Origin: an uncultured Planctomycetaceae bacterium
GTDB lineage: Bacteria; Planctomycetota; Planctomycetia; Gemmatales; Gemmataceae
DNA: 64,000 nucleotides
Assembly: GCA_937888715.1 (NCBI GenBank)
Contig: CALARU010000114.1
Span: 1 to 64,000 of the forward strand
Direction: 5' to 3'
This document shows, piece after piece, positions 16,939-22,509 of this stretch. Made by a program: the position numbers and the translations under genes. Positions within the stretch are counted from its first letter, which is position 1. Each line of letters begins with the position of its first letter. Under the pieces are notes generated by a model. It ran no database searches. It was not told where the DNA came from and worked only from the letters and a program-made list of their open reading frames with translations.

Positions 16939-19623
16939 TTAGCTGCCGGAATCTTCCTTGATATTTCTATTGCGGTAAGAATCAGCAATGGGAATTCTGC
17001 CATTATCATCAAGCTTGCCTGAAGCTTCAGTACGCAGCTTTTTCATGGTTTCGATTCTGAAATCCCTGCTGTATTGATCAAGGAATATCTGCCAAAGAGT
17101 GTCAGGTTCCTTAGATCTAGAAGAGGCATTTTCGTAGATCTTTTTAAATTCTTGAAAACCTGGCTCGGCTCTGGAAAGAAGAAGAGCAACATAAAAAGTA
17201 TTTTCTGGGCGGTCCCGAACCACCATGGTGTCGCCAGGTTTTTTCAAGGAAAGCAATTGATCCACAAGATTATTTCTCGGGTAGGGAATAATATCTGTGG
17301 GAATACGGAAAGCTTGATAAACCTTGGATTGCCCTGGGCCTGTGGTGTTTTGCGGTAAAATCCGAGTCACCCCACTAAGTTCCTTCAGGTCGGAATCTTT
17401 CTTGCTCGCAATTAGGTTTGCAAGATAACCCTTTGATTCTCGGACGAGATCATTGTAACTGGTTGGCCAAGTTTTCTTCTTGGCCTCTTCAGCGATTTTC
17501 TCGGCTTCTGCACGGGCTAGTTTTCTTGCCTTTTGCAGTTTCCAGGCTTTGATAATCGCGGGCTTAACTTCTTCAATGGTTCGATCTTTGGGTGAAGAAT
17601 CTTCAGATCGCCAAATCAGGTAGGGTTCCCTGGAGAATATCCACCTGCTGGGGTCGTTTTGGAACATGCGTTCATCAGGCGACCATCGGGTGGTTTCGTA
17701 GGTTCCATTGCCTTGGAAAAATAGCTGCCAGAATTCGGGCGCTTGTGGAGCATCTCGGTAAGATTCAATGAAGGATTTTTTAAGATCAGAGAATTCAGGT
17801 ACGGATGTCATTTCGAAATAAGGTTTGGGAGATTTCATCGATCGAATTTCCAAGCCATATTCTGAAATACCCTTTGCAACCAACTTGCTTGCATCTTCAG
17901 GCTTATTTTTTAGTTTGGCAAGTTCTTCGGTGAAAAGGATGAAGTTTTCGCGCATCATTCTGGGCGAAAGAATGTCGAGATACTTATCAAAAAGAGTGGT
18001 GATAACCGTTTCCATTTCTGGAACCGGTGGCACAAAATTAAAGGGCAGGGCAATCGCAGCGTAAGGGTTTGTGGAGGCACAAGCTAGAATCGTGGAGGTA
18101 AGGATTTTGAGCCTTGCGGAGGCTTCGAAAGCTAATGCCCCACCGGGATAAATTGCAGCAGTAAGAAAAGGGGAACCAAGCGTTTGCTGTGTGCCAGCAA
18201 TCTGGCCAACTAATCCTGCAATCAATGCTGGTTGTTGGGTGCTTTGTTCGTGCAATATCTCAGAGGAAGCAAAGGGCGGATCAAACCACGAAGACCGGGA
18301 ATCTTTGAAAATACGATATTCAGCATACATCGGTTCTTGTGAAAACCCTGGGAGAATGTTGCCAATTGCAGCACCAATAGAGCCACCAAAACTATCGGCT
18401 TGCAAAAAGGCCAAAGTTCTAGTTACAAAGGGCGCCAAGGCATTAGCCTGTGCCTTTTTTCGGAAGACTGGTGATTCTGCTTTTGCAGTAGCATATTCAC
18501 CCTTAACGACGCGGGGCTGGCGAAAACCAGGACGGTCGCTTCCGGGGTTTACTTCGTCATTCTTAAAGCTGTTGTAAAAACTTTTAATCTCTTCTGGTGT
18601 GGGCTCATCCGTCACTTTGGAAATAAAATCTTCCGCTTGGATAGGAAGCATGATCACGCCTAAGCTGGCGCGGTAATCTTTGAAGAAGCTGAAGAATTCG
18701 GAAGGGCTGGGGGTTCCCGCATTTCCCAGACGCTGCATCGGTTCACGCAAATCGCGGTAAGAACGAACACCAGGAGATTCACCCAGAATTGATTCTTTGG
18801 CCATGATCACACGAAACTCATTGGTAAGGCCTGCTAGGAGCTCATCTTCGTTAAGAGCGCCATTTTTGGCCAACCCTTGTACCGTAGGGATTTGTTTTAG
18901 GGGCAGCAATGCGGGCCATACTTCTTGATTTGCAGCTTCGCGGTTTACAGCCACTCGGATATCATCAAGCGCAAGTTTGATGTTAAGCTTGTCTGCAACC
19001 TTAAGCCAAACCATGAAATCCAAAAGATCTTCAGGGTTTTTGCCACCACCAAAATACATCTCTTCCAAGCCCCGCATCGCAGTATTGGTTTCCCAAGCTT
19101 CAAAGCCAAGGGAAATGGATAGGGTTTCCAGCATGCGCATCTGATCTGGATTCTTGATTACGGTGGTTTGTGCGGAAAGAAAACTTAAATCGTTTTGAAC
19201 GCTCATTGCCTGCCAGCCCGGGGGAAGGCGCATTTGTTGTGCAAAGAAAGGATTCCTGCGCATGCCCCAGCCTTGCATTACCCTGCCAAAAGGGTTGTCC
19301 ATGCCTTCTTTAATATCTTTTTGTTGCTTTTCTAGTTCGGTCATCGCCATGTTCACACCCAAGGCTGTGGTGCGCACCATAAAGGAGTTAGTAAGATCGC
19401 GTTGGCGTGCAATTTTGTCTAATTGGCTTTCAAATACAGGTTCACCGTATAAAGTGGTAACTTGGGTGCCTGTCCTTGTTCGGGTGGCTAACCATTCCTG
19501 CAGGGTTTGGAAAAAATCCCCCTGTCCGAAGGAAAAAACAAAGACGATCATGCAGACAATGGCAGCAAAAGCCATGAGTGTGCGTTGATTTTTTCGAAAA
19601 CTTTCAAAAGGGTTAAAAGCCAT
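16939..19623 (-). CDS. Large membrane-anchored PpiD/SurA-like protein
   Basis: This 894-residue protein starts FNPFESFRKNQRTLMAFAAI and has one N-terminal membrane helix (about residues 17-34), with the rest probably outside the membrane. The topology and the N-terminal helical region resemble PpiD/SurA-type periplasmic chaperones. I see no parvulin (PpiC) catalytic domain. A Lys/Ala-rich coiled stretch lies near residues 690-715 (AWKLQKARKLARAEAEKIAE). The most probable role is folding or quality control of exported proteins, but this is inference from architecture. It is convergent with hflX and divergent from topA, and no operon partner is visible. Confidence 0.6.
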   Translation of the reverse strand: MAFNPFESFRKNQRTLMAFAAIVCMIVFVFSFGQGDFFQTLQEWLATRTRTGTQVTTLYGEPVFESQLDKIARQRDLTNSFMVRTTALGVNMAMTELEKQQKDIKEGMDNPFGRVMQGWGMRRNPFFAQQMRLPPGWQAMSVQNDLSFLSAQTTVIKNPDQMRMLETLSISLGFEAWETNTAMRGLEEMYFGGGKNPEDLLDFMVWLKVADKLNIKLALDDIRVAVNREAANQEVWPALLPLKQIPTVQGLAKNGALNEDELLAGLTNEFRVIMAKESILGESPGVRSYRDLREPMQRLGNAGTPSPSEFFSFFKDYRASLGVIMLPIQAEDFISKVTDEPTPEEIKSFYNSFKNDEVNPGSDRPGFRQPRVVKGEYATAKAESPVFRKKAQANALAPFVTRTLAFLQADSFGGSIGAAIGNILPGFSQEPMYAEYRIFKDSRSSWFDPPFASSEILHEQSTQQPALIAGLVGQIAGTQQTLGSPFLTAAIYPGGALAFEASARLKILTSTILACASTNPYAAIALPFNFVPPVPEMETVITTLFDKYLDILSPRMMRENFILFTEELAKLKNKPEDASKLVAKGISEYGLEIRSMKSPKPYFEMTSVPEFSDLKKSFIESYRDAPQAPEFWQLFFQGNGTYETTRWSPDERMFQNDPSRWIFSREPYLIWRSEDSSPKDRTIEEVKPAIIKAWKLQKARKLARAEAEKIAEEAKKKTWPTSYNDLVRESKGYLANLIASKKDSDLKELSGVTRILPQNTTGPGQSKVYQAFRIPTDIIPYPRNNLVDQLLSLKKPGDTMVVRDRPENTFYVALLLSRAEPGFQEFKKIYENASSRSKEPDTLWQIFLDQYSRDFRIETMKKLRTEASGKLDDNGRIPIADSYRNRNIKEDSGS

Positions 19624-19739: not shown

Positions 19740-19836
19740 AGCGGGTCTTACTTTCCATACAACCTCAACTTATTCAATTGTTGAATCTTAACTAGATAAT
19801 TATTGAAACTGAAGCAAAAAGTCTGGAGTTAGTTTA

Positions 19837-22509
19837 GTGCCACCGAAAAAGAAAAAAAGCTTGGACACTGTTGAATCACCTGTAAAAGCAAAAACTATAC
19901 CGAAAAAGAAAAAAAGTTTGGTCATAGTTGAATCACCTGCAAAAGCAAAAACGATCCAGAAATATCTGGGTGATTCCTTCGATGTTGCTGCTAGCAAAGG
20001 TCATATCCGTGACTTGCCAAAAAGTAAATTCGGTATTGATATCGAGGCTGGCTGGATTCCTACGTACAGGAATCTTTCTGACCGAAAAGAAGAATTAACT
20101 GCTCTAAAAAAGTTGGCAGCCAAGGCGGACATGGTTTATCTGGCGCCTGACCCCGACCGCGAAGGTGAGGCAATTGCCTGGCATCTTAGCGAAGCTTTAG
20201 ACTTAGACCCTAAAAAAACCTTGCGTGTGACTTTTAACGAAATCACCAAAAAGGCAGTAACAGAAGCCTTTAATACCCCAAGCGCCATTAACATGGGGCT
20301 TGTAAATGCTCAAGAAGCGCGAAGATTTCTTGACCGAGTGGTGGGCTATAATCTTAGCCCACTTTTAAGCCGAGTCTTGGCACGCGAACTCAGTGCAGGC
20401 CGGGTGCAATCGGTTGCAGTTCGCCTAATTGTTGATCGCGAAAAAGAAATCCAAGCTTTTAAACCTGAAGAGTATTGGAGAATTATAGCAACTCTCTCCA
20501 CTCAAGGGAAAGCCACCAAGAAAAATCTTTTGACGGTAAAAAAGGCAAAGGGTTCTGAAAAAGAATCCGAAGATGAAGACGAAGCCGATCCAGAAATTGA
20601 AGCAGGAACTGCGGAAGAAACACCCAGTTCCAACGACCTTCCTGAAGACGTTTTTAAAGCTGAACTCAATGAATGGGATGGAAAGAAATTTTCCACCGTC
20701 AATGAAGAAAGCACCTTGGAAATAGCCAATATTCTTGAAAAAGGCACTTACGAAGTTTCCAAGCTCGAACAAAAAGATCGGGAAGAAAAAGCTCCCCCTC
20801 CTTTCACCACCAGTACCTTGCAGCAGCAAGCAAGTATTAGAATGCGTTACACCGCAAAGCGAACCATGGGCATTGCCCAGCGTTTGTACCAAGGTGTGGA
20901 TTTGGGCAGCGAAGGTTCGGTTGCTTTGATCACCTACATGCGAACCGATAGCACCCGGGTTTCTGATGATGCGCTGAAAGCATGCAGGGAACTAATAACC
21001 ACGACGCACGGTGCAGATTATGTGCCCACAAATCCTAACCGTTTTACTTCTGGGAAGAGCGCTCAGGAAGCACACGAGGCCGTTCGCCCCACCGATTTAA
21101 GCTATACGCCTGAAAAGGTCGCAGCTTTGATTCCACTCGAGCAATCGAAGCTTTACGCCCTGATTTATAATCGATTTGTTGCAAGCCAGATGAAGCCCGC
21201 AGTCTTTTCTGTTACCCAGGTTGAGGTGAAATGCGACAAGGGTTTGTTTAAGGCGCAGGGTAAGATTCTTAAATTTGCAGGCTTTCGAAAAGTGCTTGCT
21301 CCAGGTGGGAAACAGGAAGATACCATGCTTCCCGATCTCAAAGAAAAACAGAAGTTAAATCTTCAAGAGTTGGTTGGCAGTCAGCATTTTACCCAACCAC
21401 CTTCACGCTATGGTGAAGCTAGTTTGGTGAAAGTGTTGGAAAAAGAGGGCATCGGGCGCCCTAGTACTTACGCCACCATTATCAGCAAAATACAGGAAAG
21501 ATTTTATGTTGAAGTCAAAGAGCGCAGGTTCTTTGCAACTGATATAGGAATCAAAGTAATCGATCTCTTGGTCGAATATTTTCCCACGGTCATGGATCTT
21601 AAATTTACCAGCCAGATGGAAGAAGAATTAGATCAGATCGAAACTAATGCAGTTCCTAGAAATAAAGTTCTGGATGATTTCTTTGCGCCGTTTTCTTCTT
21701 CGATGACAGATGCCAAAGAAAAAATGCCAGGCGCTATGGAAAAGTGCCCACAGTGTGGCAAGGAAATTATCGAAAGGTATAGCAGGCGAGGCCGTTTTTA
21801 TGGCTGTGCAGGTTATCCTGAGTGTAATTATATCAAGCGTGCTGAAGGTGTTGAACCCCGCGAAAAACCCGTTCTTACTGAACATATTTGCCCAAGTTGT
21901 GGTAAACAAATGTTGCAGAGATCAGGCAAAACAGGGCCTTTTTTAGGATGCTCTGGATATCCTGATTGTAAAACCACCATGAATTTTGACCCTGAAGGGG
22001 TACCCGTTGTGACAACTAAACCTACTGAACATATGTGCGAAAAATGCTCCAAACCCATGGTTATCCGTGAAGGTAAACGAGGGCCTTTTCTTGCCTGCAC
22101 CGGTTATCCAAAATGCAAAAATGCCAAGGATGTTGATGCAGAGGGAAATCTTATAGTACAAACGGATCTGGGCGTGAAATGCGAGAAGTGTGGCGGTCCG
22201 ATGAATGTCCGAAAAGGCCCTCGTGGCCCTTTCCTTGGTTGTGCTGCATATCCCAAATGCCGCAGCACCAAACCTATTCCTGAAGAATTAAAGGAAAAGG
22301 TTAATATCATGTATCCACCACCACCAAAAGTGGATATCCCCGAAATCGAAATTACTGATACCTGCCCCGAGTGCGATGGGCCCATGAAGTTAAGGCCAGG
22401 CCGTAAGGGCTTTTTCCTTGGTTGCATCAAGTACCCCAAATGCAAGGGTACCAAACCCTTGGATCCCGAGTTGGCAGAAAAACTTGAGTTCCCTGGTATG
22501 AATAAGTAA
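19837..22509 (+). CDS. topA: DNA topoisomerase I (type IA) with duplicated N-terminal segment and five zinc ribbons
   Basis: The 890-residue topoisomerase relaxes negative supercoils. The Toprim domain runs from about residue 26 (LVIVESPAKAKTI with the catalytic Glu), through the DPDREGEAIAWHL acidic triad at about residue 108-120. The active-site tyrosine lies in LITYMRTDSTRVS. Unusual points: the first 19 codons after Pro2 are a second, imperfect copy of the start of the Toprim domain (see the repeat entry), and a roughly 40-residue acidic insertion (GSEKESEDEDEADPEIEAG) lies near residue 243. The C-terminus carries five Cys4 zinc-ribbon repeats with patterns like CPQCGKEI...FYGCAGYPEC. The start is GTG at 19837 with GGAG (19825-19828) eight bases upstream. 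Confidence 0.95.
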   Translation: MPPKKKKSLDTVESPVKAKTIPKKKKSLVIVESPAKAKTIQKYLGDSFDVAASKGHIRDLPKSKFGIDIEAGWIPTYRNLSDRKEELTALKKLAAKADMVYLAPDPDREGEAIAWHLSEALDLDPKKTLRVTFNEITKKAVTEAFNTPSAINMGLVNAQEARRFLDRVVGYNLSPLLSRVLARELSAGRVQSVAVRLIVDREKEIQAFKPEEYWRIIATLSTQGKATKKNLLTVKKAKGSEKESEDEDEADPEIEAGTAEETPSSNDLPEDVFKAELNEWDGKKFSTVNEESTLEIANILEKGTYEVSKLEQKDREEKAPPPFTTSTLQQQASIRMRYTAKRTMGIAQRLYQGVDLGSEGSVALITYMRTDSTRVSDDALKACRELITTTHGADYVPTNPNRFTSGKSAQEAHEAVRPTDLSYTPEKVAALIPLEQSKLYALIYNRFVASQMKPAVFSVTQVEVKCDKGLFKAQGKILKFAGFRKVLAPGGKQEDTMLPDLKEKQKLNLQELVGSQHFTQPPSRYGEASLVKVLEKEGIGRPSTYATIISKIQERFYVEVKERRFFATDIGIKVIDLLVEYFPTVMDLKFTSQMEEELDQIETNAVPRNKVLDDFFAPFSSSMTDAKEKMPGAMEKCPQCGKEIIERYSRRGRFYGCAGYPECNYIKRAEGVEPREKPVLTEHICPSCGKQMLQRSGKTGPFLGCSGYPDCKTTMNFDPEGVPVVTTKPTEHMCEKCSKPMVIREGKRGPFLACTGYPKCKNAKDVDAEGNLIVQTDLGVKCEKCGGPMNVRKGPRGPFLGCAAYPKCRSTKPIPEELKEKVNIMYPPPPKVDIPEIEITDTCPECDGPMKLRPGRKGFFLGCIKYPKCKGTKPLDPELAEKLEFPGMNK
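19843..19956 (+). repeat. Tandem 57-bp duplication inside topA 5' end
   Basis: Copies 19843-19899 and 19900-19956 are adjacent, in frame and identical at 50 of 57 bases by my count. They encode PKKKKSLDTVESPVKAKTI and PKKKKSLVIVESPAKAKTI. The second copy is the canonical Toprim start; the first keeps the Glu and the SP-KAKTI pattern. Confidence 0.9.

Follow-up and report, generated by a model that had tools for sequence, protein, structure and literature searches.

The residue equivalent to Glu9 of E. coli topoisomerase I (TopA) is a metal ligand in the Toprim domain and the proposed general acid of the enzyme, and its mutation abolishes both DNA cleavage and relaxation (PMC7587558). The segment that precedes the first Toprim strand was surveyed in family and phylum. 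The TopA proteins started either with a head of 7-10 amino acids of the V-P/A-x-R/K-K-K type or with a Lys/Ala/Pro-rich tail of 32-72 amino acids, and the 32-72-residue tails found at this same site in several other planctomycetes were unrelated in sequence to the Toprim start. Long, histone-tail-like N-termini of this kind occur in many planctomycete TopA proteins (L017, L024, L028-L030, L045-L056) and are varied and lineage-specific in sequence, with for instance KKTSA repeats in L052 and KKPAA repeats in L049. The tail of L083 contains KQSLATRK twice and that of L080, from the same genus, once in another form; this tail apparently grew by internal repeat. A search of open-licence papers gave no biochemical data on TopA N-terminal tails and no published report of a duplication of the topA start.

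The window, i.e. the whole 64-kb stretch of DNA analyzed here, contains a topA gene in which the start of the Toprim domain occurs twice. The relevant features are as follows.

Positions 19825-19828, forward strand: Shine-Dalgarno-like GGAG, 8 nt upstream of the GTG start codon at 19837-19839, from the sequence and a start-codon scan.
Positions 19837-22509, forward strand: topA, encoding DNA topoisomerase I, GTG start, 890 amino acids, assigned from TIGR01051 and Pfam domains.
Positions 19842-19898, forward strand: upstream repeat copy (copy 1), PKKKKSLDTVESPVKAKTI, from repeat search and TRF, drifting and predicted to be disordered.
Positions 19899-19955, forward strand: downstream repeat copy (copy 2), PKKKKSLVIVESPAKAKTI, from repeat search and TRF, the true first Toprim strand and loop with the catalytic Glu32.

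The topA product matched TIGR01051 (topA_bact) with 818.5 bits against a cut-off of 456.4 over residues 28-668. Pfam recognized a Toprim domain, a Topoisom_bac domain and five C4 Zn_ribbon_Top1 stretches. This domain set is that of a normal bacterial topoisomerase I (type IA), and relaxation activity is predicted for the enzyme. The core also carries an acidic low-complexity insert, KGSEKESEDEDEADPEIEAGTAEETPSS (window positions 20500-20640, residues ca. 225-267), which was modeled as disordered. Upstream, an 894-aa open reading frame on the reverse strand (16939-19623) adjoins topA divergently; its product has an N-terminal hydrophobic segment and gave no Pfam match.

The two 57-nt copies are adjacent and head-to-tail, with 51 of 57 bases matching (89%) and no indels. 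The duplication is in frame and lies immediately 3' of the GTG start, the unit being 19 codons (codons 3-21). A first-pass annotation of this DNA had described the catalytic start of TopA as tandemly duplicated in frame, with about 50 of 57 matching bases. The repeat search and TRF confirmed the duplication, including the two peptides, and in the codon register used there (19843-19899 and 19900-19956) we obtained 50 of 57. Its assignment of the second copy to the true Toprim start also held, since the Pfam Toprim domain begins at residue 28, within copy 2. TRF found no other tandem array in the window (score 187, period 57, 0% indels). Over a 390-kb sample of this genome that includes the window, it returned eleven rows, that of topA among them, with periods mostly divisible by three (12, 15, 45, 105, 348, 375). 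A 57-bp in-frame tandem duplication is therefore unremarkable here and calls for no special mechanism. Two loci on contig C104 of this genome, L110:4873-7229 and L110:11657-11824, hold tandem arrays of 348-375 bp (x 6) and 45 bp (x 3.7).

The distribution of the duplication was followed in seven genomes of the genus, one per species (G000-G006). It was present at the same topA position in six of them (G000, G001, G002, G003, G005 and G006), in agreement with the earlier suggestion of a lineage trait. The seventh, G004, has the single copy VPPKKKKSLVIVESPAKAKTI behind the same upstream leader, and the GGAG sequence and GTG start are kept in all seven. All relatives read outside the genus had one copy of the topA start. 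In a maximum likelihood tree of topA without the repeat, the six duplication species grouped together with 100% bootstrap support, to the exclusion of G004. The six differ from one another at 4-7% of topA nucleotides and from G004 at about 20%. The first-pass annotation had offered a recent duplication as one possibility; recent is too strong a word because the duplication predates the split of species that are 4-7% apart.

Since six species have the same duplication, chance and misassembly are excluded. The window does come from a 414-contig draft genome and misassembly had been raised as a possibility, but the six species genomes were assembled separately and each has its own substitutions at the same site, which makes an artefact vanishingly improbable. 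The public records of the relatives are separate metagenome-assembled genomes (MAGs), including ZE-17MAR17, Loc090116, MiH-14oct19, UBA969 and LacPavin. The ZE- MAGs are freshwater Planctomycetes from Lake Zurich (PMC6461901).

A search covered 392 genomes of the phylum, 346 of which gave a match; a duplication of another length might escape it. Among the matches listed, none outside the genus started at query residue 1-2. Long N-terminal matches were inspected in 11 of 12 candidates and consisted of unrelated, mostly Lys-rich sequence with no copy of the Toprim start. In two drafts (G029:C6:266017-268574 and G035:C84:186-3426) the topA matches were split over several frames, possibly due to sequencing errors or gene decay. 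The distribution is most simply explained by a single duplication that became fixed on the stem of the six-species clade. Loss in G004 through exact recombination between the copies is possible and requires one extra step.

The two copies have since had very different fates. The protein sequence of copy 2 is identical in the six species, whereas 9 of the 19 unit residues of copy 1 vary and ten are unchanged. Selection was quantified by codon maximum likelihood (F3x4) under a gene-wide synonymous clock; kappa and the branch lengths came from a fit to topA outside the repeat. For copy 1 the omega was 0.416 (95% CI 0.244-0.688), as compared to ca. 0.001 for copy 2 (upper bound 0.063) and 0.037 elsewhere in topA. 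Copy 1 thus lacks a constraint like that of copy 2 (0.42 vs ca. 0), and holding it to the gene-wide omega was penalized by a 2dlnL of 38.7. Pairwise pN/pS values showed the same order, with 0.57 for copy 1, 0 for copy 2 and 0.044 for the rest. When copy 1 was instead held to omega = 1, the 2dlnL was 13.0 under the gene-wide clock, which favors an omega below 1, and 0.8 with a free local rate, which does not reject omega = 1. These two tests disagree because synonymous changes are scarcer in both copies than in the rest of topA. Based on the omega values and the two-clock tests, copy 1 is strongly relaxed, as the first-pass annotation had proposed, and it may retain a weak constraint.

The changes in copy 1 include its core. 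Residue 10 corresponds to a Val of the LVIVE strand; four species have Asp there and two have Glu, and the outgroup and all copies 2 have Val at the equivalent position. Apart from this acidic residue, no amino-acid difference from copy 2 is common to all six copies 1, so the core Val was most likely replaced early. An intact hydrophobic LVIVE is absent from copy 1, which reads LDTVE, LDIVE, LDNVE, LEIAE, LEIVE and LDIAE in the six species. The reading frame, Glu13 and the lysines at positions 4, 5, 17 and 19 are invariant. In G002 (L020:1495-1540) the start of copy 1 is a nearly pure A run that encodes VKKKKKNS, derived from VPPKKKKS; the run directly follows the start codon and is likely slippage-prone.

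The structure was predicted with AlphaFold2 on a 30-sequence alignment (A1), which gave a mean pLDDT of 73.8 and a pTM of 0.56. Residues 1-22 were modeled as coil with pLDDT below 50, so copy 1 is predicted to be disordered. The Toprim fold opens with a strand at residues 27-31 and a helix at residues 34-44, which lie or begin in copy 2. Pfam, alignment and model agree in placing the catalytic Glu on the first Toprim strand in copy 2: Glu32 is invariant in the 30 sequences and aligns to E. coli TopA Glu9 (LVIVESP). These results bear on the term decoy in the first-pass annotation if it is read as a function, i.e. on the proposal that copy 1 competes with copy 2 for the position of the first Toprim strand, or regulates TopA by binding Mg2+ or DNA with its own Glu and Lys. 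Glu13 and Lys17 of copy 1, which correspond to E. coli Glu9 and Lys13, are retained throughout the six species; they are, however, two of the ten unchanged residues among 19. The Val to Asp/Glu replacement breaks the strand core in all six species, the adjacent Ile is gone in two, and the model shows disorder. With its hydrophobic core broken by an acid, copy 1 is unlikely to form a second strand 1, and we consider a working decoy very unlikely. A related reading, in which copy 1 would be an intramolecular pseudo-active-site segment whose Glu13 and Lys17 touch Mg2+ or the G-strand path and tune cleavage and religation in this clade, appears highly improbable.

Instead of being a part of the protein, copy 1 could be a leader or untranslated sequence if a short isoform started inside the repeat. 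Both copies do contain an in-frame TTG, which in copy 1 is codon 9 in five of the six species, but G005 has TTA there and a start-codon scan of copy 1 in the six species found no start codon with a Shine-Dalgarno sequence, the TTG included. A protein started at the TTG of copy 2 would have its N-terminus right at the beginning of the LVIVE strand. The conservation of GTG and GGAG in the six species and in the single-copy sister and the weakly structured 5' region further argue against such a start, which is very unlikely. An mRNA structure formed by the repeat was also considered and rejected, since shuffled versions of the 5' region gave more stable folds than the native sequence (z +1.6 for the latter).

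What the duplication did change is the segment ahead of the fold. Between the start codon and LVIVESP there are 27 residues in the duplication clade and 8 with a single copy, and the net charge of this head went from +4 to +8 (+7 to +9 across the six species over the 27 residues). Together with the coil predicted for residues 1-22, this makes the segment a basic tail that is predicted to be disordered. We best read the duplication as another independent lengthening at a site that tolerates length change; its one unusual feature is that it copied the catalytic strand and loop of TopA. By analogy with the C-terminal tail of actinobacterial TopA, which is rich in lysine (PMC7587558), the longer basic tail could plausibly make slightly more non-specific contact with DNA.

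A stronger claim would be that the duplication was kept since a longer basic, histone-tail-like N-terminus improves DNA binding or processivity of TopA, as with the actinobacterial C-terminal tail. The doubled charge of the head, the invariance of four of the six copy 1 lysines (Lys4, Lys5, Lys17 and Lys19), the still more Lys-rich copy 1 of G002 (VKKKKKN), the recurrence of unrelated basic tails at this site across the phylum and the gene-clock omega of copy 1 (0.42, below 1) are consistent with it. On the other hand, a lysine was lost in G001 (Lys6 to Ile) and in G002 (Lys7 to Asn), and neutrality of copy 1 is not rejected under the free local rate. An adaptive origin is possible but on balance doubtful. 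Since Glu13, the four lysines and the frame were kept, the tail may have a mild function.

Very probably, a single 57-bp duplication occurred in the ancestor of the six species, after which the downstream copy remained functional and the upstream copy was expelled as a near-inert tail. In this scheme, an in-frame tandem duplication of topA codons 3-21 would have become fixed in the common ancestor of the six. Because the unit is exactly 19 codons and was inserted after the start codon and ahead of the Toprim fold, copy 2 would still build β-strand 1 and the catalytic loop with Glu32. Copy 1, pushed outside the fold, would have become a flexible lysine-rich N-terminal tail. The early change of Val to Asp or Glu would have removed its strand-forming core, with much weaker constraint since. 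Copy 1 probably has no catalytic role, and the biochemical effect of the duplication is most likely nil to slight, i.e. a longer basic tail with perhaps weak non-specific DNA contact.

The locus gives a clean, tree-placed example of how part of a catalytic fold, once duplicated, can be displaced from the fold and end up as a tail. Within one gene and one species, one copy is frozen and the other evolves at ca. 10 times the omega of the gene. Tandem duplication at the gene start may be one way in which planctomycete TopA proteins acquire their diverse basic N-termini. Knowledge of the enzyme itself is unchanged, and the protein is an ordinary lineage-specific TopA variant of lake-dwelling planctomycetes.

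Compared to other bacterial TopA proteins (TIGR01051), the enzyme has the same Toprim and Topoisom_bac domains, five C4 zinc ribbons, the catalytic glutamate (here Glu32) and the DPDREGE motif. It differs from close relatives in its head, which usually counts 7-10 residues and here, through the 57-bp tandem duplication, 27. The tails of other planctomycete TopA proteins (e.g. L017, L024, L028-L030, L046, L048) likewise form a basic, probably disordered stretch from the start codon to the first Toprim strand, but they are 32-72 residues long and of low complexity, whereas the present tail is a copy of the Toprim start. Actinobacterial TopA has a Lys-rich C-terminal tail (PMC7587558), also a basic flexible extension of the TopA core. 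This tail is located at the opposite end of the protein and its DNA binding is supported by experiment (PMC7587558), whereas the N-terminal tail described here is known from sequence and a structural model.
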